Position numbers and translations under genes: made by a program. A stretch of 64,000 bases of DNA from Cryomorphaceae bacterium 1068 (GTDB lineage Bacteria > Bacteroidota > Bacteroidia > Flavobacteriales_D > Cryomorphaceae): NCBI GenBank assembly GCA_027214385.1, contig JAPVXR010000004.1:124001-188000 (forward strand), in the 5' to 3' direction. Position 1 is the first letter of the stretch; every line of letters starts with the position of its first letter. Positions 7,937 through 24,997 of this stretch are shown here, in pieces. The notes beneath the pieces were generated by a model. It saw only the letters and a program-made list of their open reading frames with translations, searched no databases and had not been told where the DNA came from.

Positions 7937-8044
7937 GTGTTCCGTTTTTTACAGACTCAGCGAAAATAGTAAAGTTTGAATACTTAATCGACGAGAGTCC
8001 TAATTTTTAACTTTCTATGTTTATCAACTATTGTGCCTGATCTT

Positions 8045-8737
8045 TTATTTCAAAGAGAAAGTTACAGGCATAACGAAGCTCACGCTGACAGGCCGACCTT
8101 GATGAAATCCAGGATTCCACTTCGGCATGGCTTCGACGGCTTTGATTGCTTCTTCGTCCAAGCCGCCTCCTACTTTTCTCATCACCTTGATATCAGTTAT
8201 AGTCCCATCCTTTCTAACGGTAAACCCCACATGAACTTTACCCGAAATACCAGCGCGTTTTGCCATCTGAGGGTAAACTACTTGATTTTGGAGAAAAGCG
8301 ACTCTCGCTGAATCACCGCCCGGGAACTCAGGCATAACGTCTGCAATAAATATAGGCTCTTCATCAATTGCTGGCTCAGGCAATCGAGCAATATCCTTAA
8401 ATATTGGTTCATTTCCGAGGTCAGGAAACTTCAATACTTTTTTCAAAGGAACAGTTTCGTCGTATTTAAATCGATCGATTATGGTTTTAGCCAGATCATG
8501 TTTCACCTCTTCTTTTTTCTCAACAGGTTTTTCCTTTTCTCTGAAAGAAGGTGGAATTATTGTCGCCTCGAATATTGAGACTTCCAGTGTGCAATCTGGT
8601 GTGGAAGACCTTTCATCGACGGGTGTTCGCCATTCGAAAGCCGATAAGACAATGGCGCAAGCAACGGCAAGGCCTAAGAGAAAAAAGGTCGGTTTGTTGC
8701 GTTCGAGTTCTACCTCGCGCGATTTTTTAGTCTGCAT
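8045..8737 (-). CDS. Energy transducer TonB-family protein
   Basis: 230 residues with the same plan as the next gene: an N-terminal helix (about 17-33, FFLLGLAVACAIVLSAFEW), a mixed-charge periplasmic linker and a C-terminal TonB domain (about 138-230; PEFPGGDSARVAFLQNQVVYP, GKVHVGFTV, DEEAIKAVEAMPKWNPG). The two proteins share the first membrane region ending in FEW and the TonB domain but not the linker, consistent with an old tandem duplication followed by linker divergence. The gene lies 50 bases after vanZ. Confidence 0.88.
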   Translation of the reverse strand: MQTKKSREVELERNKPTFFLLGLAVACAIVLSAFEWRTPVDERSSTPDCTLEVSIFEATIIPPSFREKEKPVEKKEEVKHDLAKTIIDRFKYDETVPLKKVLKFPDLGNEPIFKDIARLPEPAIDEEPIFIADVMPEFPGGDSARVAFLQNQVVYPQMAKRAGISGKVHVGFTVRKDGTITDIKVMRKVGGGLDEEAIKAVEAMPKWNPGFHQGRPVSVSFVMPVTFSLK

Positions 8738-8787
8738 AGTACACGGTTTTTTAAACAGAAAAACCGCCTTGTGGCCACTCAGCTTTT

Positions 8788-9198
8788 TTATCTGCGGAGT
8801 TTATTGAATAGCCAAATTGCAAAGACTGTGCCTAAGGCTGAACCTATTGTATCTGCTACGAAATCGAGTACACTGGCAAACCTAGTTGGAAAAGCTACGC
8901 CCTGGAGAATTTCAGTTGCACCACCGTAAAATGCGCCAACTAAAAAAACTGCCAAAAGCGACTTTTTGGTCAGGTGATCTTGTCGTTTGATCAATCCCCA
9001 AACTATCAAAATAGCCAATAAACCGAATACTGCTACATGTGCGAGCTTATCTTCAATATCAATGGCCCAAAAGTCTATGTCAGGAAGATCCTTTCCCGGA
9101 AGGGACATCAATAAAAGAATAAAGGCGGCCCATGAAAGAGCCGCCCAATATGCTTTAAGAAAAGAAGGTTTTTTAAGCCGTGTGCGATTTGTAGGCAT
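8788..9198 (-). CDS. VanZ-like family membrane protein
   Basis: A small membrane protein of 136 residues from the ATG at 9198 (MPTNRTRL); a longer reading to 9237 is possible but lies deeper inside gcvH. It has about four hydrophobic helices and the VanZ-like signature [16 protein letters not shown] with a later GGATEILQ and [12 protein letters not shown]. VanZ-like proteins are widespread and mostly of unknown function; the name comes from a teicoplanin-resistance protein, and no resistance role is implied. The start overlaps the end of gcvH by 26 bases, in the order gcvH-vanZ-tonB. Confidence 0.85.
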
Positions 9199-9550
9199 CA
9201 GCGTCCAAGAGTTCTGATAGGTCTGGTTCACCCTCAAATTCGATTTTGATCATCCATCCTTTTCCGTAGGGATCTTCATTTACCAATTCAGGATTTGATT
9301 CAAGTTCTTTGTTGAACTCAATGACCTTCCCTGTCATTGGCATAAACAGGTCGGAAACGGTTTTGACCGCCTCAATTGTTCCGAATACTTCTCCTGATTC
9401 CAAATCCTCTCCTTCGGTCTCAATTTCGACGAATACGATATCACCCAATTCGCCTTGAGCAAAGTCAGTAATTCCAATTGTGGCTGTATTGCCTTCAATT
9501 TTGATCCATTCGTGGTCTTCTGTGTATTTTAATTCAGCAGGAAAATTCAT
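9173..9550 (-). CDS. gcvH: Glycine cleavage system H protein
   Basis: Lipoyl carrier that shuttles the methylamine group between the P and T proteins of the glycine cleavage system. The 125-residue product has the family's typical length, the N-terminal [26 protein letters not shown] and the lipoyl-lysine motif [11 protein letters not shown] (Lys near residue 63). It lies 10 bases after sprA and overlaps the VanZ-like gene. No P or T protein gene is in the window. The link to sprA looks like retained gene order rather than a shared process. Confidence 0.95.
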
Positions 9551-9560
9551 TATACCTTGT

Positions 9561-12500
9561 TTATTGAGTCAATGTAAAGCGCAAAGATACTCCGGTGTTT
9601 ATGTTTGATGTAGGGAATGAAATGGAAACTTTCGGTTTATTGATCTGGTGATCATAAAAGGCTCTGATATTCAGTCGGTCTGAGATCACATAATCGATAG
9701 CCGTTTTTATCGAAATCAGATTTTGACCTGAAGTAATTTGATTTGTTCCCTCTTGCATTCTTCTTGCAATGACTTCAGTGTCACGAATACTTAGGTCAAA
9801 TCTCACATTAAGGTCACTCTTTCTCTTTTTTCCAGCCAGCTTAATTTCTACATCAGGAAAGCGATATCCAAGTCCCAAAACAATTTCATCACTTCTATTC
9901 TCTGTAAGCTGGAAATTAGTCGTGCTGAAAGCCAAGACTCTGTTCTTGTTGATCTCGAAATTGGTGATCAGCGAGTTTTGCCAAGTCATATCTATTCTAA
10001 TCAACGGACTTAGCTGTTCGCTTATAGTTATGGCATTGATCTGATTCTCGGCAATAAAGTTTTCTTCAATGGAATTGTCTCGAGCAGGTGTACCATCAGA
10101 GTTTGTTCCCGCAGCGAGGTTGGTCGTGAAATTACTGATACTAAATGTACTGCGGTAAGCATGAGAGATATTTACTGTTCTGAAAATCTTCTTTAGTGCA
10201 GGAATCTTTGAAAGACCGTCATAGTTGACAGACCAATTTGGATTTCTGATTGCATCCCAAAGGGAATAATCGCTCACGAAGAAATTTACACTCTGTGCAT
10301 CCTGCCCGGTGTAAGCTGCCACAAATGCCGCTATAACCACTTGCTGTGAGGAGGGGCCAAAACCATCCGCATATGCTCCTTCAAGACCCGAATTTGGTTC
10401 TGAAAACCCTGTTTCTCTTGCAAGTCGATTGGATATTTCAGGTCTGATATCAAGGAAAGTCTGGAAAACGGGACTAAGATTATTGACATCCTTTGTCCAC
10501 AGCGTGCTCCAAGCATTCAAGGTAGTACTGAAACTTCCGGTCTTGAATTGACTCTCTTCTAAATACTGCTGCAGATCAGGGTTGTATCTGAAAAAAGATC
10601 CGTCATTATCCGAACGACTCCTTTGTGCGGTCAATTCGATTCTCAAATTGGGTAGTGGTTCAAGGTTAAGCCTCAAGTTGAAATCCTCTGTGTACGTTTG
10701 GAGATACTGCTGGTTGATAAACTCGTTTTCTACAAGCCACCCCTTTAGGGCTGCTTGCTGATTAAAATTATCTATTTGGTGTCCAAATACGAAGTCTACA
10801 CCCGGAGCATTAAACCCTGGGTCCATACCAATGATATTGGATGTCCGGTTGTATCCCGGAAGCATCGTTCCTTCATTTTGGCTGTAGACGACACTCAAGT
10901 TTTTGACGCTCATCAACAACTTGGCGAAATAATCCAGCACAGTTATGGTGTTTTCGTCTTTTTCTTTTTTCTCAGGTTCTTCCTCCTCTCCGTCCTTCTT
11001 TTCTTTTTCTGCTTCATTTCGGCTTGACCCTCGCGACAGTGACCTACCACCGCCTCTACCCTGTCGCTGGAATTTTCGATTTACGTTTTTGAAATAGTCA
11101 ATCTTATTGTAAAGAGACAGGAAGTTTAACTGACCATTAATAGAGATATTCCTAGAGTTCTGAATGACATTACCCAAGGTGTCTTGAGAGAATGGTGCGC
11201 GCTGCCAATTGTAACTTCCGCTATACCTTAAATCAGTAGTTACCCAATCTAGAATTGGAATTTTGTTGATGGGCACTCGGTAGTTGGCAGAGAAATTTTG
11301 ATTAAAGGTTACGTTATCACCGAAGCTAGTAATACTCCTCCAGATTGTATCACGGTATTGATTGTATGATTCTCTTTCCCCTTTATCAACTCTGCCTTGG
11401 GGTTCATCAATAAAGGAAAGATTATTGGCACTATATGTTAATCGGATGGATTGTGTGAGGTCATGCTGAACATCGTAAATCCGATTCCAGTTGAAAGTTT
11501 TGGTATACAGAATAGGTTGTTCAAAATTGAATACGTCGCTATTGTTTTTAAACTGTTGCTCACTGTAGGTTCTATTTATTTCGGACCTAAATGAGAAGGA
11601 CTTCGGGATCAATGTGAAATTGAAATCTCGGATCAGAGCTAAGTAGTCGGACTTACGCAGAAACTTGCTTGTAGCAAATGGCTTTATATTCTTCGGTTTG
11701 GCACTGTAGTTATATCCCAGACCAATCCTAAATTGCCTTTGATTGTCAAAAGCTGTATTGATATCGTAGAACTTCCTATCGCTATAAGCAAATGTAGCGT
11801 TGAAGTTTTCGATGTCATATACCTGAGGTTTCTTATCGGGATTGGTTCGTTCCTTCCTGACGTTCGTAAAGTTGATGCTTCGCCTTCGAGTATATGTTTG
11901 AGATCGCTTTTTCAGTTCCTTTTTTTCATCTTGGGAAAGCCCTTCAGCCACTTCGTCTATCTCAAGGTCAGGTGCCAGCGGATCAAACCGAGGTCTTACC
12001 ACTTGTTCTGATTGCCCTATAAACATAGGGACTTTAACTCCTGACTCTTCAGGGAGAAACTTACCCAATTCAAGATTTGAGTTGGCATCGTAACCCATTG
12101 ATTGCTCCTGAGGTCTTTCACTTACCCTACTTTCTAATGATCCGAAGTTTGGCGTAGAGATATTTCCCGAAAGGGAAACGCTACCAAAATCTGCGAGTTG
12201 AGCATTTACTCTGGCAAGAGCAGCCCATCCTCCATCGTTGTTGAAATCGGTAAGCCGAAGCTCATTCACCCATATTTCAGCACTTTCGGGTAATGCGTCA
12301 TCTTCTGCCCAAATATTTTTTGAGGCATTGGGATTTCTGACACCGATCATAATCGACCGAACGGAGCTCAATACAGGATTTCCCTTGATGCGAATCCTTC
12401 GGTCTCCATCCATCTCTTCGTAAATTCGGTTTTGTTCAAACCCGGATTGATTTCTTGAATTCTTCGCACTTTGAAGCTTATCAAAATCAATCTTCATGTT

Positions 12501-15500
12501 GTTCTCTTCAGGCCAAATATTTTGAGGAGTACTCGAAGCATTGAGATCTGTAGGCTCAACGGGAATTTCGTATTCGTAATAATTCTGGTCAAAGTCGGTA
12601 CCAAGTCTGACAAAGACCGAAACATCTCCAAATCCGAGTGGATTGTCTTGATTTAGGGTCTCACCATGAATAAACATTTCAAGGTTACCGTACATCCGCA
12701 TGTCGATGTCGGTACTTCTAAAAGCAGAACGGGCATCACCATCTTCTAATTCGCTAACACGAAGAACCAAAGACTGCTCATTCAAACTTCGAAGATTCGC
12801 AGTACCGGCATCAATTTCTCGAGAAATTCCAGGTGGGGTGACGTAATTTAATGGCACCCTCGAACTGTTCTCTTCGATATTTACCGCGAGGATATCGAAC
12901 TCAGTATTTCCCGGGGGGCCCGGAATGAACTCACCTTCACGCAACTCGTCAGAGTATCGTCTCCACTCTCCTCGAATCAATTCCAAACGGGCAAAACGAA
13001 GTACAACGGGGGTTTCGAATCCTGTGGTGATCATCCGCATAAATCGGATAGAGCGCAGATCGCGAATACCTCCGAAAGATTTTCCTTCTCTTACAGGAAT
13101 TTTGAACTGGTACCAACTAACCTGTCTTCCATCAGGTGCTACTCCACTAACTACGTCGGTGATGTAGTTGTTTCCTACTTCCCAAGCTCCTGGATCTATA
13201 AGTGGATCAGGAAGATCAACCTCATATTGAAAATAAGATTCTGCTTCACCCAGAGTTAAATCTTGGTTGATATCTTCAGTGGTAGGCAATGTGGTAGCCT
13301 GAGTAGGATAATCCTCCGGACTATCTTGGGTAGTTACCGAGTTTCCTTCAAAACCGTTAAAAGCCTTGTAGCGCTCCAGAATATCTGCTTGCTCAGCATC
13401 ATAGTCAGCCCCTCTGAAAAAGCGAAAATTATCGGACGATGGATCTTCATTTGCTTGAGTAATAACAGCCGGAGCAACACCAGGCAAGGCGGTGATCCGA
13501 TCCAAGAATTCTTCGAAATAAACGCGCTCACCTGCATCACTAAAACCATCAAAACCAACATCCTGAGCGACGTTGGAATTGGTTGTGTTGTCAAAGGCAT
13601 TCACAATACTTTGCGTCAAAGGCACTCGTGCCCAGTTTGTGGTATCTGTGAGGAGACCATTTGGATTGGCTGGATCTAAGGGCAAGCCATTCTCAAAACT
13701 CATCTGACCATCTCTGAGCACATCTTCCGACACGTTTCCGATATTAACCAACAGCTTTCCCCTAGGGTTACCTTCAGTACCCACAAAGTCGCGGTTGTCA
13801 GCGTTGTATGGATCCATTACCCAAAACTGGATAAATTCAACATTGGTCTGCTCAAAGTCCGTGGTATTGATGGCTCTCTGAACCCCGCTCCATCTGGATT
13901 CAGGATCATTCAGCTCTCCTGTCTGCGGGTCAATACCTGCGGAAAGTGCCGTAGACTCAGCATCGTAGTTGTATGGGCCCCGATCTCTGGGAAAGTAAGA
14001 CATATCCAGAGTAGCAATGTTCGCAGGGGTTCCTGCGGGAAGTTCTTTGTCAGGAAAAACTTCATTTTCTGTTACTTCCCTCTGGTAGTGACGCTCATTG
14101 TTGATGTTGTCAGGTGTAATATTGTCGTTTCTAAAAAACAATGGATCCAAGATGTACCAGGCAATTTTAGCTCGGTTATACCCTAAAACGCGATCGTCGC
14201 TCAGTGACGCCTCAGGAAACAAATCGGGCTGAAGTTGAGGAATAGAAGCCAATCCCCAAGAAGCAAAATTTCGAAGATCAATTAATGAAATAGTTCCCTC
14301 AAAGTCATCGATGTAAGCATTTCCGGATTGCCCCACAGCCTTGTTATGACCTGGTATCAAGTGGGCAAATTCGACGGCAGCATCAATATTTGACGTTTCC
14401 TTTGTATTAATAAAAGGAATAGCGTCTACCATGTCCGTCAAAAACCGAGATTCGTCTTGGTACCTGGCATCAAATCCCCAAAGCGTATTATTCATCGGCT
14501 CATCGCCAATGTTTACCTTTTGGGTTAATGGTCGTTCATTGAGGTTCATAATGGTTGAACCTAAAGTGAAATTATCGTTGAAACGATAATCAAATCGGGC
14601 CCCCATCAACCTGCGCGTCTGAATACTAAACAGGGTATTGCTTTCAACCGAAATCTTAATCGGAGTCTGAGATTCAAGAAGGCCCGAGTTCAATATTTTC
14701 ACTCGACCTAAGTTGTAATCTACCGTGTAATCTTGATTCTCTACCAACGGAACCCCACCTGCAGTTACCTGTACGGCGCCTTGAGGAATATTGAGCGCAT
14801 TCAAGGCTATTTCATCCGACGAAGCCGAGCGGTAATTTCCTTTCAATTTGAATCGATTCAAATAGAGAAAGTTCTGCTGAGCTACAATCTTTGTAGAATC
14901 ATAAAGCTGTGGATACACAACCCGTTCAATCTCAGTTTCAGGCACGCCTGCCTCTTCCAAGACTTGTCGCAGGTGTGATCCAAAAGGCTCAATTACCGGG
15001 AAGAATACCCGTCCATTTTGGGCGTTTATGGTACCACCTTCAGTCGCAGCATTATCCACGAAGTCAAAACGACCATCAGGCTGAGGGTTTCCGTTTTGAT
15101 CCAACTTATCCATCTCAAAAATCTGAAGTAGCGGTATGTCTTGAACCTGTGGTTCGGGAATGACGGGAACATCAATACCTTCTTCGGGATCGTTATACCA
15201 AACATTCAGCATAAACTCCTGGCTATTCACTTGGTAAGCTCCCAGTGAATAAACGTTTCTCATCATCAAGTCCCACATTGGATTTCGAACGTCTACCACG
15301 GTCGACTTCAACATTTTGAGATAAAGAGCATCGGGGGATGTAAATCCATCGTTGGACAAATCCCCCACTTGATAAGTTCGACCATTTAAGGTGTACTGAT
15401 AGGATACAGCCAGAACCTCTGCATTGTTAAGCGCTTGGTTCAAGGAGATAAATCCAAGGCGTTGATTGAACGTGAACTCATTCGGGGTAAGTTGACGTGC

Positions 15501-16829
15501 ATTACTCAAGCGCTCAAAGTCGCGACCATTCACAAGACCCAGACCTGCAAGGGCCTGGGATGATCCAGAAAATCCGCGAATTTCAGGATTAGAAGCCATT
15601 TGGCTGTACAAGGTATTCTGACCATTGTCAGGGAAATTATTGAGGGGATTTCCCCCTACCTCAAGTGGCAATTCCGGATTGACATACTCAGGATCTTCAC
15701 CTAAATCCGTAAATGCAATAACATTTCGTGTTTCCTCAACATTTGCCGTTTGGTTAACCACCCAAACTTCAATACGCGTAATCTGAACTCCTGAATTTAC
15801 TACGGGTAGATTCTGAAGAGCGCGATCATAACTATCTCGGAAATACCCACTCAAGAAAAAGTGACGATTGGCTTCGTAGTTGTCAATCGTAATTTCAAAA
15901 TCTTGGGTTTGAGCTCCACCTTGAACATTGATCTCCTTTTTCTGTCCTCGTTCCTGAGAGAAAAGGGTCGTTACATCCAATCGGCCAAACTTGAGCTGAG
16001 TCTTAATCCCGAAAAGACTTTGACTACCTGAGATCAACGAATTGTTGAGAGGCATACTCACATTACCCGCTTCGATCTTTTGAATAATTTCGTCTTCGTA
16101 GCCAGTGTATTCAATTTTGGTTTGGTTCTCAAAATCAAATGTCGCTTCTGTATTGTAATTGGTGCTTAGCTTAAGCTTATCCCCTATATTTCCAACTACG
16201 TTCAGCTGAATTCTCTGATCGAAGTTGAATGTTGTAATTCTCCGTTGATTTACAGGAATCTGTGGGTTCTCGTTGCTATTGATATTGGCACCGAAGGTGA
16301 GCTCAGCCGTACCTTGAGGTCTGATGTCTACTGTATTTCCACCGAAAATTCGGTCAAACGCTTTACTATTAACTTGAATGCTCGGGGCAAAAGGGTCGGG
16401 CCCCCCATCTTCGTCGCTTGCCATGGCGTCAGCTGCCTGAATTTCACTCCAATAATCCTTTACTGAATTACTATTGACGTAATCCATGTATTCGTCGAAA
16501 GTCATTACCGTTGGATTTCGGTAATCAATATTATCGCCAATGCGCTTATAGAAATAATACTGCCCCGTTTCAGGGTCGTATTCTATAACATTATTCATGT
16601 TACTCGGATCAGTAAGATTGATCCGACCATTATTGCCGAAGGGATTCACGCCATCTTCTATCGGATAAATTAAGTCCACCTCCGGAGAGTCGATGGGCAT
16701 AACAGTAAGCTCAGGGAGATTTACAACCTTTCGTGTAAAGGCAGGTCCCTCGGCACTTACAGACCAAACAAACAAGATTAGCGCACCTATCGCAAATAGG
16801 CGCAATATGTTATTAAACCGCAAACTCAA
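9561..16829 (-). CDS. sprA: T9SS outer-membrane translocon protein SprA
   Basis: A 2422-residue protein with a signal peptide (about residues 1-27) and a very long predicted beta-barrel with many NxN, FxFN and YxF strand motifs. Size, N-terminal region and position between ruvA and gcvH fit SprA/Sov, the giant outer-membrane channel of the type IX secretion system, which also supports gliding in flavobacteria. A charged low-complexity insert rich in Glu/Lys lies around residues 1938-1963. It starts 14 bases after ruvA, so the two may share a transcript. Intact SprA fits the several T9SS cargo genes in the window. The assignment rests on length, composition and synteny as well as sequence resemblance. 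Confidence 0.93.
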
Positions 16830-17531: not shown

Positions 17532-18227
17532 ATGGACAAGAAAAAGCTAGTTGTATTTTCAGGAGCAGGAATGAGTGCCGAAAGTGGTATTGACACTTTC
17601 AGGGATCACGGAGGGCTCTGGGAAAACCATAAAATCGAGGAAGTTGCTACTCCTGAAGCTTTTAGAAACAATCCGAAAAAGGTTCTGGATTTTTACAATA
17701 TGCGCTTTGAGCAGCTCAAGTCCGTGAAACCAAATGAAGCTCATTTAGCCATCGCTCAACTCGAAATTGAAGAGATATATAATGTAAAAGTTGTCACTCA
17801 GAATGTGGACGACCTTCACGAAAGAGCAGGCAGTAAAACAGTATATCATCTTCATGGCGAGCTGACAAAATGTAAAAGTTCAGGAGACGAGAGTTATGTT
17901 ACCGAAATGCCCAGTGGTGGTCTACAAGTTGGCGACCTTTGTCCGTCCGGCTTTCAACTAAGGCCAAACATTGTGTGGTTCGGAGAAATGGTAACAGCTA
18001 TGGATAAGGCAGTTGAAATCGTAACAAAAGCTGATGTTTTGGTGGTAATCGGTACCTCTTTAAATGTTTATCCCGCTGCAGGTTTGGCCCATATGGCTCC
18101 AACCCACGCACAGGTATTTTTAATAGACCCCGGATATTTCGATCATTTGGATCCGAAAATAAAGCACATAAAAAAGCCCGCAACAGCGGGCTTTAAAGAC
18201 CTTATCTCAATTTTATTGAACCGATAA
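17532..18227 (+). CDS. cobB: Sirtuin-family NAD-dependent protein deacylase without the zinc cysteines
   Basis: 231 residues with the sirtuin NAD-binding motif GAGMSAESGIDTFRD (11-25), TQNVDDLHERAG and the catalytic histidine in HLHGE (His108). Tyr55 and Arg58 in FYNMR match the YxxR pair that class III (SIRT5/CobB) sirtuins use to bind succinyl or malonyl lysine, so deacylation beyond acetyl groups is likely. Only two cysteines (114 and 137) remain where classical enzymes have four zinc ligands, so a zinc site is improbable. The 3' end contains the terminator of the convergent gene (18170-18194) and overlaps that gene's stop by 15 bases. Confidence 0.9.
   Translation: MDKKKLVVFSGAGMSAESGIDTFRDHGGLWENHKIEEVATPEAFRNNPKKVLDFYNMRFEQLKSVKPNEAHLAIAQLEIEEIYNVKVVTQNVDDLHERAGSKTVYHLHGELTKCKSSGDESYVTEMPSGGLQVGDLCPSGFQLRPNIVWFGEMVTAMDKAVEIVTKADVLVVIGTSLNVYPAAGLAHMAPTHAQVFLIDPGYFDHLDPKIKHIKKPATAGFKDLISILLNR
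18170..18194 (-). terminator. Intrinsic terminator of the T9SS cargo gene, inside the cobB coding region
   Basis: A perfect 9-bp stem (AAAGCCCGC and GCGGGCTTT) with an AACA loop, followed on the minus strand by further T residues. It lies 18 bases past the stop of the minus-strand cargo gene, but on the plus strand it encodes the KKPATAGF segment of the sirtuin. Confidence 0.8.
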
Positions 18228-18878
18228 AACGTTCGTTGATATTTGAACGTTTGCATCATTCCACATTCTAACGATGTAGTTGCCCGTCCCAAGACCGTCA
18301 ACATTAATGGATCCTTGACCGAAGGATTGAACTTCTTTAACGAGCTTACCTGCGATGTTGTAAATCTCAATTCGCTCCACCTTGTCTGCTCCGTCTATAA
18401 AGAATTCCGAAACGACCGGATTCGGATAGATTTTCAAAGCATTGTTGATGGCTACGGGAGCAGAGAGTGCCTGATTGAAATAGTAAGTGGCGCTATCCGT
18501 GTCCTCAGAGTCATTTACATTGGTAACTGTTACGATAACAATCGCTCCTCCTTCGAACCCACTGGGATAAACATGTACGTCCAAAGTACCTTCTTGTCCG
18601 GATTCCAAATTAAAGGTTGCATCATTTACAACAGGGCCGTGGCACAAATTTACATCGCACACCGCTGTAAACCATTCAGGTGTTATATCTACAATTTCAC
18701 GCGTCCAAATATATGACTGCGACTCAGATGACTGATTGATTACTAAAGCATTTGCTACAACATCTGATTGCTGATCGGTAATACCTTCTACAGCAATTTC
18801 ATTTGGCTCTATCACTGTTTGAGCATAAGTTGAAGCTCCAATAAGAAGCCCAACGACTATGGCGTAAAGTTTTTTCAT
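18213..18878 (-). CDS. Secreted protein with T9SS type A sorting domain, unknown function
   Basis: From the ATG at 18878 (MKKLYAIVVGLL) the product has 221 residues: a signal peptide (about 1-20, ending TYAQ), a middle beta-rich domain with a Cys-Asp-Val-Asn-Leu-Cys pair and a Gly-rich ESGQEGTLDVHVYP stretch, and a C-terminal type A sorting domain (from about residue 148: LKIYPNPVVSEFFIDG to the end). Such proteins cross the outer membrane by T9SS and are processed there. A longer start at 18896 is rejected because the promoter -7 box (18894-18901) covers it. I do not recognise the middle domain. Confidence 0.85.
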   Translation of the reverse strand: MKKLYAIVVGLLIGASTYAQTVIEPNEIAVEGITDQQSDVVANALVINQSSESQSYIWTREIVDITPEWFTAVCDVNLCHGPVVNDATFNLESGQEGTLDVHVYPSGFEGGAIVIVTVTNVNDSEDTDSATYYFNQALSAPVAINNALKIYPNPVVSEFFIDGADKVERIEIYNIAGKLVKEVQSFGQGSINVDGLGTGNYIVRMWNDANVQISTNVLSVQ

Positions 18879-18893
18879 TGACTTGATTTTGAC

Positions 18894-18924
18894 CAAAAGT
18901 ACAGATTTACAACGGTCAGGACAA
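18894..18924 (-). promoter_or_regulatory. Promoter of the T9SS cargo gene
   Basis: Minus strand: TTG (18922-18924), 20 bases, then TACTTTTG (18894-18901), a full Bacteroidota-type promoter. The transcript would start near 18887, which fixes the start codon at 18878. Confidence 0.65.
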
Positions 18925-19152: not shown

Positions 19153-20904
19153 ATGAAGAAAATTTACCTAAGTGCGATTGTTTGCTTGTTTGCAACATTC
19201 ACGTACGCTCAATCAGAAAGACTAGTCCTTTCAGAAGAAGGAACTAATGCAAGCTGTGGCCCATGTGCTGCCCAAAATCCATCATTCAACGCTTTGCTGG
19301 ATGCTAACACAGACAACGTCATCTCAATTAAGTACCAATGGTATTTCCCCGGGTTTGACCCAATGCATGAGCACAATCCTGACGAAGCGAATGCGCGACT
19401 AGCTTATTATGGAATTAACGGTGTTCCTACCGCGACTATTGACGGAGAAATCCCGGATGTGAGTCCATCATACGCAGGTGCTCCTGGAGCTTTCACTCAG
19501 AGCCTATTTGATGATGCCGCAGCAGTTCCTGCCTCATTCGATATAGAGGCTGACTTTACTGTTTCCTATAGCGAGATCAGCGTAAACGCAACAGCCACTT
19601 GTACTCAAGCAGCTTCGGGCGATTTGAGACTGAGAATTGTAGTAATTGAAAAGGAAGTTCTTTTTGATGAGGCTCCTGGTTCTAATGGAGAAACTGAATT
19701 CTACAACGTGATGAAGAAGTTTCTACCTAACTCAGATGGACTATCAATGGCTAGCGCTTACGAGTCAGGAGATGAGTTTACAGCGTCTGAGTCTTGGAAC
19801 CTTGCAAACATTTACGACATCGAGGAATTGGCAGTTGTAGTTTTTATCCAAGACGACAACACCAAAGAAGTACTTCAAGCGGCTTATGCTGAAACAGGAG
19901 AATTTATTTCTGAAACTGAAAATGATGCGGCAGGAATCGCCATCAATAACACTTCAGGAGAGAATTGCAGTGCTACTTTCAGCCCTACGGTTACTATCAG
20001 AAACTGGGGTAGTGAAACATTGACTAGTCTTGATGTTGAATATGAAATAGCAGGTGAGTCGAACACTATCGAGTGGACAGGTTCAATAGATTTCTTCGAA
20101 ACTGCAGAAGTTGAATTGGGCGAAATAGCCACTCCAACTGCTCAAGAAGAAGATTTAGTAGTAACTCTTTCTAATCCAAACGGCCAAGAAGATGGTAACG
20201 CAGTAAATGATGAAATAGAAGCTACTATTGCTAACGTACCTCAAGCAGGAACTGAAATTGAAGTTGTTATCGATACGGATAATTATGGCGAAGAGACCTA
20301 CTGGAGAGTTGTGGATGGAGATGAAAACGTACTTGGCGAAGGTGGAAACAGTTGGGTAGGAACTACCAACATCGGTGTTGGTGGTGGAGCTCCTACTGAA
20401 GGTGCCGGCACATACAATTCAAATCAAACTTATGAAACTACTGTAACGATACCTGCAGGAGTAGACTGCTACAGTTTCGAAATTTACGACTACTATGGTG
20501 ATGGAATTTGCTGCCAATATGGAAACGGTTCTTACGAAGTTGTTGACATGGCTTCTAGCGAAACTATCTTGGAAGGTGGAGCTTTCAGTGCTGAAGAAGC
20601 GAAGAATTTTGCAGCAGGAGTGCTAAGTGTTGACAACGTAACTTCGGTTAACGACTTCACCATGTTCCCGAATCCAACAAATGGACTGTTGAATGTTGAG
20701 TTCAACCTTGTGTCTTCACAGAGAGTTTCTATTGATGTTCTTGACCTCACAGGACGTCTTATTATTTCAAAAGACTTGGGAGTTCTTCCAGCAGGATACA
20801 GCTTACAGCAAATAAATCTTTCAGGTCAAAGCGAAGGATTGTACCTACTGAACATGAATGTAAACGATGGCCGAGTAGTTGGCAAGTTTACTGTAAACAA
20901 CTAA
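19153..20904 (+). CDS. Omp28-like secreted protein with CGPC motif and T9SS type A sorting domain
   Basis: 583 residues. A signal peptide (1-20) is followed by a thioredoxin-like Omp28-type domain: LVLSEEGTNASCGPCAAQNP with a CGPC motif at 35-38, then GINGVPTATIDG, the region that carries the cis-proline in thioredoxin folds. The middle is beta-rich, with an EIYDYYGDGICCQYGNGSY segment holding adjacent cysteines. The C-terminus (about 500-583, FTMFPNPTNGLLNVEF) is a type A sorting domain. It heads a five-gene plus-strand locus with a second Omp28 protein and TlpA. The function is unproven; CxxC suggests thiol or metal chemistry at the cell surface. A strong terminator follows at 20925. Confidence 0.85.
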   Translation: MKKIYLSAIVCLFATFTYAQSERLVLSEEGTNASCGPCAAQNPSFNALLDANTDNVISIKYQWYFPGFDPMHEHNPDEANARLAYYGINGVPTATIDGEIPDVSPSYAGAPGAFTQSLFDDAAAVPASFDIEADFTVSYSEISVNATATCTQAASGDLRLRIVVIEKEVLFDEAPGSNGETEFYNVMKKFLPNSDGLSMASAYESGDEFTASESWNLANIYDIEELAVVVFIQDDNTKEVLQAAYAETGEFISETENDAAGIAINNTSGENCSATFSPTVTIRNWGSETLTSLDVEYEIAGESNTIEWTGSIDFFETAEVELGEIATPTAQEEDLVVTLSNPNGQEDGNAVNDEIEATIANVPQAGTEIEVVIDTDNYGEETYWRVVDGDENVLGEGGNSWVGTTNIGVGGGAPTEGAGTYNSNQTYETTVTIPAGVDCYSFEIYDYYGDGICCQYGNGSYEVVDMASSETILEGGAFSAEEAKNFAAGVLSVDNVTSVNDFTMFPNPTNGLLNVEFNLVSSQRVSIDVLDLTGRLIISKDLGVLPAGYSLQQINLSGQSEGLYLLNMNVNDGRVVGKFTVNN

Positions 20905-20924
20905 TATTCGATTTATTTTCAATG

Positions 20925-20957
20925 ACGTTCGCAGCTTAGGCTGCGAACGTTTTTTTT
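20925..20957 (+). terminator. Intrinsic terminator after the Omp28-like gene
   Basis: ACGTTCGCAG pairs with CTGCGAACGT (10 bp, 6-base loop), followed by eight T. It lies 20 bases past the stop. TlpA begins only 10 bases after the T run, so transcripts of the downstream genes must read through or begin at a promoter overlapping this site. Confidence 0.9.
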
Positions 20958-20966
20958 AAACACCAT

Positions 20967-21467
20967 ATGAAATACTATCTACTCCTAATTCTATCATTCG
21001 CCTCTATTGTTTCAAGTGTTTCTGCTCAAGACGGAAATACGACAGTACCATCAGCAACCGTAAAATCCATTGACGGAAAATCTTTTGATACGGCTGATTT
21101 CAATAATGACGGCAAACCGATGATTATAAATTTTTGGGCTACTTGGTGTGCTCCCTGCAAAAAGGAACTGAACAATATTGCAGAAGTATATGACGACTGG
21201 GTTGAAGAAACAGGAGTTAAGTTGGTGGCTATATCTATTGACGATGCCCGAAGTCAATCAAGAGTCCTCCCATATGTAAATGGTTCATCTTGGGAATACG
21301 AAGTATACATTGACGAAAACCAAGACTTTAAACGAGCCATGGGTGTTAATAATGTTCCGCACACGTTCCTGGTAGACGGTTCAGGAAACATTGTTTATTC
21401 ACACAACAACTATGCTCCAGGTGACGAAGATGAACTCTTCGAGAAGATTATTGGTCTTCTCAACTGA
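20967..21467 (+). CDS. TlpA-family thioredoxin-like protein
   Basis: 166 residues with a signal peptide (1 to about 21, ending SVSAQ) and one thioredoxin fold. The redox motif is WCAPC at residues 60-64 in NFWATWCAPCKKELN, and the cis-proline region is VNNVPHTFLVDG. Family members reduce or exchange disulfides of periplasmic proteins, for example in cytochrome c maturation. Here the neighbours are Omp28-like proteins with their own CxxC pairs, which are plausible partners (inference). It lies 11 bases before the DUF6029-like barrel gene. Confidence 0.92.
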   Translation: MKYYLLLILSFASIVSSVSAQDGNTTVPSATVKSIDGKSFDTADFNNDGKPMIINFWATWCAPCKKELNNIAEVYDDWVEETGVKLVAISIDDARSQSRVLPYVNGSSWEYEVYIDENQDFKRAMGVNNVPHTFLVDGSGNIVYSHNNYAPGDEDELFEKIIGLLN

Positions 21468-21478
21468 GACTCGGATGT

Positions 21479-23176
21479 ATGAAAAAGCTAGTCACCCTCT
21501 CAATCATTTTATTTAGCCTGACGGAGGTATTTAGCCAAGACCCTTTTCAGGTAAGAGGAAACTTTTCCATTGATGCTCAATATTACCGGGAAGACTCTGC
21601 TATCGCAGCTGTGGTTCCTGATGAACAAATCGCCCTTCAGGGTTTCGGTAATATCATTTTGACCAAAGGAAAGTTTGAAGCAGGCGTCAGATTCGAAACT
21701 TACTTACCTGCGTTTGTCGGTTATCCTGCAGGCGCACCTTGGGAGGGCACTGGAATAGGATATCGATATGCCAAGTACAACGGTGATAAACTTGAGATCA
21801 CAGTCGGAAATTTCTACGAACAATTTGGATCAGGACTAGTACTTAGAACTTGGGAAGATCGAGGACTTGGAGTGGACTACGCTCTCGATGGTATTCGAGT
21901 GGTAGCAAGGCCGATTGACGGTATTACTGTAAAAGGACTCTACGGGAAACAGCGCTTCAATTTTAATGATGGCTATCAAAATGGTGATGGGATCGTACGG
22001 GGTGCAGATATTGAATTCAACCTTAATCAGCTATTAGACTCTGTAATTAACTTCAAAGGTCAATGGACGGTTGGTGGTAGCTTTGTGAGTAAGTACGAGC
22101 AAAACAGAAACCCCGTTTATGACTTCCCTGAGAACGTAGGATCAGGTTCAGTCAGGCTGAAATATCAATACAGTGGTTTTCAATTTAGCGGTGAATATGC
22201 CTATATCTCGACAAATCCGTCCTCACTTAATAGTAATATCGTAGATATACCTGATTCTCTTGATCCTTCCGTGGGTATTTTCCAGTATGGACAAGGCTTG
22301 CAAATACATACCAACTATTCTAAAAAAGGCTTCGGAGTTGGCTTAACCGCGAGTTCTATTTCCAACATGGCCCTTCAGAGCCAACGAAACTCAGGGCCAT
22401 TCGACTCTTGGATCAATTACCTGCCGCCAACCTCTGTACTTCAAACAGCCTTGCTGGCTCAGTTTTATCCATATGCAACACAACCAAATGGTGAAGTTGC
22501 TCTCAGGGGAGATGTTTTCTACAACATCCCTAAGAAAAGTCTCTTAGGCGGTCGATACGGTACGAAGCTAGAAGTTAGTTACACTCATATTCAATCACCT
22601 GATTTCCCTGTAGTTGATGATTTCGAGATAAACAGGAAAGGTATTGAACCAACTCTATTTAGCTGGGGAGATGAAACTTACTATGAGGACTTTAATGCGA
22701 AGGTGACCAAAAGGGTTTCGAAAAAGTTCAAAGCGAGCTTAATGTACATGTATATCCAGTACAATAATGATGTTGTTTTGGGCGCTTATGACTATAACAA
22801 TAACCCAACCAAAGGGACCGTATTCGCTGATCTCATCGCTTTCGAGGGAAGTTGGAAAATAAAGAAAGGCCACAACCTGCGGTTCGAACTGCAAGCTCTT
22901 TTTACTGATCAACACCTCCAAGACTGGTTGGCGGTAGTTGCAGAATACACTGTTTCACCACATTGGTTCTTTTCTGCTGTTAACCAATATAATTACGGAA
23001 ATGCCGATGGAGACAAGTTCAACTTTCCCGTTGTATCGACAGGATACATCAATGGAAGCAATAGAATTTCCGTCTCCTATGGTCGTCAACGAGCCGGAGT
23101 ATTTTGTGTAGGTGGAGTTTGTAGAGTTGTTCCTGCTTCGAATGGCCTTACAATAAGTTTGACAAGTAGTTTTTAA
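21479..23176 (+). CDS. Predicted outer-membrane protein, DUF6029-like
   Basis: 565 residues with a signal peptide (1-20, ending EVFSQ) and a long series of amphipathic strands ending in an aromatic residue (TISLTSSF), typical of outer-membrane beta-barrels. Segments such as FEAGVRFETYLPAF, VGNFYEQFGSGLVLRTWEDR and GIRVVARPIDGITVKGLYG resemble Bacteroidota proteins labelled DUF6029. The C-terminal FCVGGVCRVVPAS holds two cysteines, unusual in a barrel and interesting beside a thioredoxin. It is 2 bases before the Omp28 lipoprotein. No function is established; substrate uptake or export for this locus is a guess. Confidence 0.8.
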   Translation: MKKLVTLSIILFSLTEVFSQDPFQVRGNFSIDAQYYREDSAIAAVVPDEQIALQGFGNIILTKGKFEAGVRFETYLPAFVGYPAGAPWEGTGIGYRYAKYNGDKLEITVGNFYEQFGSGLVLRTWEDRGLGVDYALDGIRVVARPIDGITVKGLYGKQRFNFNDGYQNGDGIVRGADIEFNLNQLLDSVINFKGQWTVGGSFVSKYEQNRNPVYDFPENVGSGSVRLKYQYSGFQFSGEYAYISTNPSSLNSNIVDIPDSLDPSVGIFQYGQGLQIHTNYSKKGFGVGLTASSISNMALQSQRNSGPFDSWINYLPPTSVLQTALLAQFYPYATQPNGEVALRGDVFYNIPKKSLLGGRYGTKLEVSYTHIQSPDFPVVDDFEINRKGIEPTLFSWGDETYYEDFNAKVTKRVSKKFKASLMYMYIQYNNDVVLGAYDYNNNPTKGTVFADLIAFEGSWKIKKGHNLRFELQALFTDQHLQDWLAVVAEYTVSPHWFFSAVNQYNYGNADGDKFNFPVVSTGYINGSNRISVSYGRQRAGVFCVGGVCRVVPASNGLTISLTSSF

Positions 23177-23178
23177 TC

Positions 23179-24057
23179 ATGAAGAATTTCAAATTATTCA
23201 TCCTAGCTGGCCTGTTTTTTTGGTCGTGTGATAAACCAGATAGTCCTTACCTGGACAATGACAGAGATTTAGGAACCGCTGAAGGTGTAATCATATATGG
23301 TTCCTCTTTTTTTGATTCATACGAATCGACTGTCCTTCTTGAAGATTTCACAGGTTATAAATGTCAGAATTGCGGTCCTGCCCTAGCTACTGCTGACTTG
23401 CTCCAAGAACAGTGGGAAGAACGAATAGTAGTAGTTGGCTACCATGTATTATCCTTTTTCGCAGCACCTGACATTGCACCCCAACCACCAAATTTCATTT
23501 TTTCAAAAGACTTTAGAACCGAGGAGGGAGAAGCGCTGGCTGAAGATGAAAGCATTCTTTCACTTCCTCAAGGTATGGTGAACCGAACTGATTTTGGTTC
23601 AGGACGACCTCAGCTGGCGGGTGATTGGTCAGGTCTCGTTTCCGACCAAATGAGTCTGGAAGCACGCGGATTTGTTGATGTTATTGCTGATTCGGTTGTA
23701 GTAGAAGATAGCGAGGTGACTTTTGCGATAGCACTGAGACCACTATCAGAAGTTGAAGAAGATTGGAATCTCGTTGTAGGCATTTACGAAAACGATATTA
23801 TTGAAGGTCAAAAAGACGGGAGTGATATTATATACCCATTCTCTCATCAACACGTTTTCAGAGGGTATGTAAATGGTCGATTCGGCCAAGCTGTTATTTC
23901 TCCTGATCTTTCTCTAGCTGATGATGAAGCTGTATATTATAAGTTTACCACAGCTTTAGACGGCGAATGGGTACCTGAAAACTGCTACATTTTTGCCTTT
24001 TTGCAAAACCCATCTACCTTAGAGGTTCTCTCAGTGGCAAAGGCACCCGTGCTATGA
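23179..24057 (+). CDS. Omp28-related lipoprotein with CxxC motif
   Basis: 292 residues with a lipoprotein signal (FFWSC, lipid cysteine 17) and an Omp28-like thioredoxin-related domain: VLLEDFTGYKCQNCGPALA with CQNC at 62-65, and a long beta-rich C-terminal half. Unlike the first Omp28 protein of the locus it has no T9SS domain, so it should stay lipid-anchored in the envelope. Its TGA overlaps the ATG of the next gene (ATGA). The pairing of one secreted and one anchored Omp28 protein suggests a relay with TlpA; this is inference. Confidence 0.85.
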   Translation: MKNFKLFILAGLFFWSCDKPDSPYLDNDRDLGTAEGVIIYGSSFFDSYESTVLLEDFTGYKCQNCGPALATADLLQEQWEERIVVVGYHVLSFFAAPDIAPQPPNFIFSKDFRTEEGEALAEDESILSLPQGMVNRTDFGSGRPQLAGDWSGLVSDQMSLEARGFVDVIADSVVVEDSEVTFAIALRPLSEVEEDWNLVVGIYENDIIEGQKDGSDIIYPFSHQHVFRGYVNGRFGQAVISPDLSLADDEAVYYKFTTALDGEWVPENCYIFAFLQNPSTLEVLSVAKAPVL

Positions 24058-24668
24058 GGTTAGTATTATTTGGTCTCATGTTCTTTACCCTACCTTTATG
24101 GGGTCAAACTGAAAATGATGACAAAAGCTTTTCTTTCTTTCTACAAGCGGGTATGAATGCCAGTCAAGTGGGTGGTGATGGACTCCAAGGTTTTGATAAA
24201 TTGAATTTCGCTGCTGGTATTGGCGTAAAGCGCATAATCAACGAAAAGTTTGATTGGCAGCTTGGAATAAACCTTCTCCAAAAAGGGAGTAGAAAAGTAG
24301 CCGACCCGGATAATGGTGACCTGACAGAATACAAAATGTCACTTCTCTACGCTCAGGTTCCGATTCTATTCGAATACAAATACAACGAGAAGATATCAGC
24401 CATAGGTGGCACCGGTTTTGGATTTCTGCTCTCAGCTGAAGAGACTGATTTCAACGGTGTGATAGATAATACACCCGACTTTAATGTGCTTGACTTTTCT
24501 CTAATTCTAGCTGTGAAATACAATATTTCAGAAAGATTTGGAGCCGAACTTAGATACGATCAATCGCTTCTACCAATCCGGACAAGGGGTGACATTGACA
24601 TTCCACTTGTGCTAGGATCGCAGTTCAATACGGTATTAGGGGTACTCTTGTCGTATTCAATCAACTAG
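24054..24668 (+). CDS. Small outer-membrane beta-barrel protein (PorT/OmpA-barrel type)
   Basis: 204 residues with a signal peptide (1 to about 18, ending LWGQ) and an eight-strand type barrel: FFLQAGMNASQVGGDG, FAAGIGVKRIINEKFDWQLGINLLQKGSRK, then LSYSIN at the end. The AGxN...G-F--G--V pattern is that of Bacteroidota outer-membrane beta-barrel proteins including PorT. Its start overlaps the Omp28 lipoprotein stop by 4 bases, and it is the last gene of the locus. I would not equate it with the T9SS component PorT on this evidence. Confidence 0.8.
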   Translation: MRLVLFGLMFFTLPLWGQTENDDKSFSFFLQAGMNASQVGGDGLQGFDKLNFAAGIGVKRIINEKFDWQLGINLLQKGSRKVADPDNGDLTEYKMSLLYAQVPILFEYKYNEKISAIGGTGFGFLLSAEETDFNGVIDNTPDFNVLDFSLILAVKYNISERFGAELRYDQSLLPIRTRGDIDIPLVLGSQFNTVLGVLLSYSIN

Positions 24669-24799: not shown

Positions 24800-24997
24800 A
24801 TGCTGGAACTAAGTAAAAAGATCCTTCAAAAAGTAAGTTTCGATCGTAAACTCTTTCAGAAGGAACTTAGGAAATCCCTCAATTGGCTTAAACCAAATGA
24901 GCGTGTTCTCCTAAAAACCTGGTGCTTGGCTACCTTTGGAGCCACCTACCATGAAATCATAATGGAAGTATTCGAATCTATGGGCGCCTCTCTCTGA
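24800..24997 (+). CDS. Small conserved-looking helical protein, unknown function
   Basis: 65 residues (MLELSKKILQKVSFDRKLF...), basic and predicted helical, no signal peptide or membrane segment. It is supported as a gene by its own ATG after a 131-base non-coding leader, the absence of any competing ORF, and an intrinsic terminator that overlaps its last codons. I recall similar short proteins in Flavobacteriia but cannot confirm it here. The LKPNERVLLKTWCLATF segment is the most distinctive part. It is convergent with ruvB. Confidence 0.65.
   Translation: MLELSKKILQKVSFDRKLFQKELRKSLNWLKPNERVLLKTWCLATFGATYHEIIMEVFESMGASL

Follow-up and report, generated by a model that had tools for sequence, protein, structure and literature searches.

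The question raised by this locus is whether a group of neighbouring genes for cysteine-bearing envelope proteins forms a thiol system that acts across the outer membrane. The locus lies in a stretch of 64,000 nucleotides from Cryomorphaceae bacterium 1068 (contig JAPVXR010000004.1, positions 124,001 to 188,000), referred to here as the window, and contains five plus-strand genes, which by Pfam encode, in order, an Omp28 protein with a Por_Secre_tail, an AhpC-TSA/Redoxin protein (TlpA), a DUF6029 outer-membrane barrel, a second Omp28 protein and a small OMP_b-brl_2 barrel (Table 1). A preliminary description made from the DNA alone had proposed that these genes form a disulfide or metal relay. 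The reading favoured here, with a probability of roughly 0.45 and thus still tentative, is that the products of the cluster form a system of thiol-disulfide exchange for the outside of the outer membrane. Synteny, the cysteine pairs and the likeness to HBP35 uphold the thiol basis of the proposed relay and its span over periplasm, outer membrane and surface; direct transfer and a part for metal, which it also suggested, are more speculative.

The neighbourhood was followed in two samples. An even draw of 198 Bacteroidota genomes was screened, and about 11-18 kb were taken around 40 of its DUF6029 genes. The second sample consists of 80 named DUF6029 loci from a collection scan, which found at least 590 relatives in all and used the closer DUF6029 alignment as query, the mixed alignment being too divergent. 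The samples overlap slightly (e.g. L035/L126), so they are not fully independent. DUF6029 is present in 56 of the 198 genomes. A TlpA gene is found no more than 5 kb away from it in 35/40 loci of the even draw and 76/80 named loci, and an Omp28-domain protein in 36/40 and 77/80, respectively. These Omp28 counts were made with a domain profile and checked by Pfam; a strict-motif count (22/40) was discarded because it missed the CPPC and CPLC types. The commonest core order is TlpA, DUF6029, Omp28 on the same strand, with order and strand varying among loci. Among distant families, a type IX secretion system (T9SS) tail often takes the place of the lipobox in the neighbouring Omp28, and such proteins remain Omp28 by Pfam, only L071 among nine falling just under the cut-off. 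Flanking ruvA, SIR2 and ruvB genes are common to Flavobacteriales loci, and therefore it is the phylum-wide sample that carries the conservation argument. The preliminary description had named loss of the neighbourhood or of the CxxC motifs in relatives as fatal to its proposal; the opposite was found over 120 loci, with a degree of conservation that far exceeds chance.

The two Omp28 proteins of the window score 48 and 62.1 bits against PF11551 (cut-off 34.9). Their CxxC motif is kept in 146/146 Omp28 proteins near DUF6029, and the lipobox, both cysteines, H89 and P130 are invariant among the aligned lipoproteins. The model of the window lipoprotein (pLDDT 84.0) matches HBP35 (5y1a) with Z 22.6 over 222 aligned residues and a root-mean-square deviation (rmsd) of 2.9, a profile comparison with HBP35 gives E 1.9e-6, and the HBP35-type architecture, a thioredoxin-like CxxC domain followed by a beta domain, is present. 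The closest solved relative of the lipoprotein is Porphyromonas gingivalis Omp28 (2r2c, E 1.9e-28). Thioredoxin activity of HBP35 in vitro is lost when its two cysteines are changed (PMC2907840). The score for NF033782, the Omp28 family outer membrane lipoprotein model, stays under its cut-off (110.5 vs 150), though the lipobox is present. As a separate observation, the lipoprotein gene is duplicated in tandem inside the cluster at two loci (L100:9549-11373 and L118:10666-12403).

TlpA of the window has the WCAPC motif, an N-terminal signal-like stretch and the Redoxin/AhpC-TSA domain that define the TlpA/ResA superfamily, and it falls below the NCBIfam cut-offs for ResA (84.1 vs 170) and DsbE (61.6 vs 123). 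By these scores it is a superfamily member outside the ResA, DsbE and rhizobial TlpA subfamilies. Six other TlpA-like stretches in the genome are at most 39% identical to it, and those that match over more than 100 residues reach 24-30%. The genome has DUF6029 and both Omp28 proteins at the present locus only.

The strongest functional clue comes from a minus-strand gene upstream, at 18213-18896, which the preliminary description overlooked and which is part of the set. Clustering of neighbours revealed a family of proteins some 250 residues long that end in a T9SS-type tail, present in 49/80 loci, usually on the minus strand upstream, elsewhere on the plus strand, downstream or in line, and the window protein joins it with an hmmsearch E of 2.1e-32. 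Without the sorting tail, the family profile matches the N-domain of P. gingivalis PorA (PDB 6kjk) with E 4.8e-5, the next match being at 0.064, and the CFGQC of PorA aligns with a cysteine pair that is invariant in 40/40 family members. The window protein thus has both an immunoglobulin-like (Ig-like) N-domain homologous to 6kjk and a T9SS tail, and at the level of sequence it is homologous to PorA, with a putatively similar function. The link to PorA rests on this profile match and not on a Foldseek match between Omp28 and 6kjk, which was rejected (rmsd 13, TM 0.18-0.31). In 80 genomes the PorA-like domain occurs in 26/56 DUF6029-positive and 2/24 DUF6029-negative ones (Fisher p 0.0009), and by coordinates its gene is no more than 7 kb from DUF6029 in 19 of the 26 genomes that have both, in changing orders. 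A natural fusion unites an Omp28 domain, a PorA-like domain and a T9SS sorting tail (L053:8400-9836, minus strand). Tandem PorA-like domains, each with its own cysteine pair, were also seen, three in L053:6863-8350 and two in L127:7063-8298 (both minus strand), and the gene itself is duplicated in tandem inside the cluster at L093:4860-6504. In P. gingivalis, PorA is PG2172 (PGN_0123) and Omp28 is PG2173, so they are adjacent by number; PG2174, which may be DUF6029, is named only as an uncharacterized vesicle protein (PMC4335976).

DUF6029 matches PF19494 with 523.7 bits (cut-off 27) over residues 1-565, its whole length, and its AlphaFold2 model (pLDDT 85.9) is a barrel with 24 strands, as counted from DSSP elements. 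A search of its sequence against solved structures gave RecA matches only, which were judged spurious. Cysteines 543 and 548 (CX4C, in CVGGVCR) are the only two of the window barrel. The CX4CR motif is kept at the C-terminal end in all 120 DUF6029 loci, as C-x-[GSN]-G-[VI]-C-R, and among 39 aligned sequences, from which the residue-conservation figures derive, the pair provides the sole cysteines of the mature protein in 25. At one of these loci, L047 (G023:C49), a frameshift splits DUF6029 into two open reading frames (ORFs) at 8001-9721, with CX4C in the second. Loop 538-553, which bears the dithiol at its hairpin tip, is the most conserved part of DUF6029, with a mean majority identity of 0.68, compared with 0.38 over the full length; loop 113-135 comes next (0.60). 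As a rule, a barrel is least conserved in its extracellular loops. Long loops alternate with short turns over most of the model and the last strand ends in a C-terminal phenylalanine, so by the usual topology rule the loop before the last strand, 538-553, is predicted to be the last extracellular hairpin and to face outward.

The simplest reading that gives every part a role would run as follows. The periplasmic TlpA would supply (or drain) electrons and would presumably be kept reduced via the inner-membrane DsbD, which is present in the window genome. In the outer membrane the element would be DUF6029, whose 24 strands would enclose a wide pore and whose last extracellular hairpin would bear the conserved dithiol. 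At the surface, the Omp28 lipoprotein would act as a thioredoxin-type enzyme, to which some lineages may add a second HBP35-like protein exported by the T9SS. A partner or client role would fall to the PorA-like protein, which has one cysteine pair. Passage through DUF6029 is the weak step of this course: with the dithiol apparently outside, TlpA would reach it only if something enters the lumen, if a small thiol goes through the pore, or if transfer happens during assembly or earlier.

The main rival holds that DUF6029 is an usher-like wide exporter of Omp28 proteins, PorA-like proteins or both, and that TlpA is the dedicated oxidoreductase which prevents their cysteine pairs from closing ahead of export. 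Among solved barrels, the 24-strand usher pores FimD and PapC are indeed nearest (Z 17.7, 376 residues aligned), PorA gets to the surface without known T9SS machinery, and the order TlpA-DUF6029-Omp28 fits oxidoreductase, pore and cargo. However, many barrels score near Z 14-17, and the match is better read as a reflection of equal strand number than of relatedness or function. By Pfam, none of the 39 members matches an usher model, whether plug or periplasmic domain, DUF6029 alone matching all of them; no chaperone family occurs among the neighbourhoods of the 80 loci; and export leaves the invariant dithiol at the tip unexplained. We regard this exporter as somewhat improbable.

Decidedly unlikely is a role in folding only, in which TlpA is a private reductase or isomerase that acts in the periplasm to set the one disulfide that DUF6029, Omp28 and PorA each have, and nothing is transferred across the outer membrane. 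Each partner does have one conserved cysteine pair, and reductases of the TlpA family dedicated to few clients are generally known, such as ResA and CcmG. Against this stands Omp28, which is itself of thioredoxin type, with an invariant CxxC, P130 and an HBP35-like fold, and would be expected to be an enzyme that needs a redox partner; its selenocysteine (Sec)-containing relatives form a named family, NF045500.

Metal or heme handling, in which the cysteine pairs pass copper or heme while TlpA and the HBP35-like proteins keep the ligands reduced, appears very improbable. Relatives of TlpA are generally known to act in copper delivery. HBP35 binds hemin, its mutant growing poorly without hemin (PMC2907840). 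However, the neighbourhoods show no recurrent TonB receptor or heme protein family apart from flanking respiratory genes, and no conserved histidine or methionine lies near the CX4C hairpin. That DUF6029 is a Wzi-related polysaccharide export porin, a suggestion drawn from HHpred resemblance in the one paper found to name the family (PMC9603273), is barely credible, since DUF6029 has no Wzi family match and no OPX neighbour, and OPX, glycosyltransferase and capsule families do not recur near it in the 80 loci, whereas thiol genes do.

Several points weigh against thiol exchange at the outer surface as well. TlpA is not near DUF6029 in 5/40 loci, and vertical retention accounts for part of the synteny in Flavobacteriales, as the common flanks indicate. 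The dithiol is predicted from the model to lie on the outer face, so that TlpA could touch it directly only if TlpA itself or the hairpin went into the lumen, and contacts between the cluster proteins are hypothetical. More than half of the DUF6029-positive genomes show no PorA-like gene, so PorA would not be the sole client. DUF6029 was not found in 98 of 154 PorV-positive genomes and is thus not required for the T9SS. PorV is present in each of the 56 genomes with DUF6029 (p 4e-8), a co-occurrence that was given little weight because most of the PorV-negative genomes listed belong to one family (f17).

All five plus-strand ORFs are real, with coordinates, families and motifs as first described, and the gaps between genes 1 to 5 are 62, 11, 2 and -4 bases, which bears out the tight joining of the last three genes. 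A strong terminator-like hairpin parts gene 1 from gene 2, so genes 2-5 are the likely operon, and gene 1 is likely a transcription unit of its own. Using only loci with room, a T9SS Omp28 protein related to gene 1 lies upstream of TlpA in 34/67 and the small barrel downstream in 27/73, which makes genes 1 and 5 accessory. The proposal of a single five-gene locus stands in so far as synteny supports one functional unit, and needs correction in that gene 1 is set apart by the hairpin, two members are accessory and a sixth was missing.

Table 1. Features of the thiol gene cluster, in positions of the window.
Feature	Position	Strand	Characteristics
PorA-like small protein (sixth gene)	18213..18896	-	signal peptide, Ig-like N-domain, C80/C85 (CDVNLC), T9SS type A sorting tail (Por_Secre_tail)
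Gene 1, HBP35/Omp28-type surface thioredoxin-like protein (predicted), CGPC, T9SS tail	19153..20904	+	PF11551 and PF18962 over cut-off
Terminator-like hairpin between genes 1 and 2	20924..20951	+	12 pairs, 7 GC, then T run
Gene 2, periplasmic TlpA/ResA-like thiol-disulfide oxidoreductase, WCAPC	20967..21467	+	AhpC-TSA/Redoxin
Gene 3, DUF6029 outer-membrane barrel, predicted 24 strands	21479..23176	+	PF19494, 523.7 bits
Codons of DUF6029 C-x-G-G-[VI]-C-R motif, residues 543-549	23105..23125	+	cysteines invariant in 39/39 aligned sequences and 80/80 named loci
Gene 4, Omp28 lipoprotein: lipobox C17, CQNC 62-65, P130, C-terminal beta domain	23179..24057	+	PF11551
Gene 5, small outer-membrane beta-barrel, accessory	24054..24668	+	OMP_b-brl_2

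Two further genes lie nearby. A 65-residue ORF (MLELSKKILQKVSFDRKLFQKELRK...) is found at 24800-24997 on the plus strand, and similar proteins of about 67 residues occur just 3' of the cluster in 14/80 loci. On the other side, a 2422-residue protein (9561-16829, minus strand), which adjoins ruvA and lies 1.4 kb from the PorA-like gene, is probably a SprA/Sov-like T9SS translocon, as named by its length and sequence; in P. gingivalis, PorA binds PorV-Sov (PMC8754138).

The protein families are known and their union across the outer membrane appears new; as first proposed, the system appears undescribed, a literature search having found no account of the locus. We know of no electron source outside the outer membrane for the surface thioredoxin-type sites of Bacteroidota, and a conserved cluster in which a periplasmic reductase stands beside a dithiol-bearing pore and a surface thioredoxin is a concrete candidate for one. 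It would offer a testable route for the exchange of electrons or signals between the two sides of the outer membrane. It also ties together three P. gingivalis proteins that have been studied separately: PorA, Omp28 and HBP35. In P. gingivalis, surface PorA acts upstream of PorXY-SigP, an inner-membrane system which sets T9SS expression, and the authors of that work hold that further factors should lie between PorA at the surface and PorY in the inner membrane (PMC7712824). Given this position of PorA, the thiol path may be the link in question and gives a testable answer to the question raised there. PorX is present in the window genome. In the fullest form of the proposal, a dithiol conduit, PorA and Omp28 would sense or use the redox state outside, DUF6029 would pass it on through the outer membrane and TlpA would hand it to the periplasm, setting PorY and type IX secretion, a chain of events that we consider unlikely. 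If true, it would to our knowledge be the first case of thiol redox chemistry carried across an outer membrane, and the missing step from surface PorA to PorY.

Among known systems, P. gingivalis PorA shares with the window protein a small Ig-like domain with a T9SS tail, a CX3-4C pair and an Omp28 neighbour, while the available portions of its published accounts do not mention thiol chemistry. HBP35 (PG0616) of P. gingivalis is a surface protein with a thioredoxin-like CxxC domain and a beta domain, a fold seen also in Omp28, but it is exported by the T9SS, whereas gene 4 encodes a lipoprotein, and no outer-membrane barrel or TlpA partner was found described for it. The Omp28-related selenoproteins of NF045500, against which the window proteins score 50.8 and 23.3 (cut-off 200), belong to the same superfamily and have Sec at the redox site where the window proteins have Cys. 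TlpA, ResA and CcmG reductases have the signal peptide, WCxPC and AhpC-TSA fold in common with the window TlpA, and are known to work with proteins of cytochrome or copper maturation; unlike them, the window TlpA forms its own subfamily tied to DUF6029. FimD and PapC ushers have the 24-strand barrel predicted for DUF6029, but they are unrelated to it in sequence and have the usher N, plug and C domains and a chaperone partner, which DUF6029 lacks. DsbD, ScsB and CcdA move thiol electrons over a membrane, as is proposed here, but these are helical proteins of the inner membrane, whereas the element proposed in this cluster would be an outer-membrane barrel.

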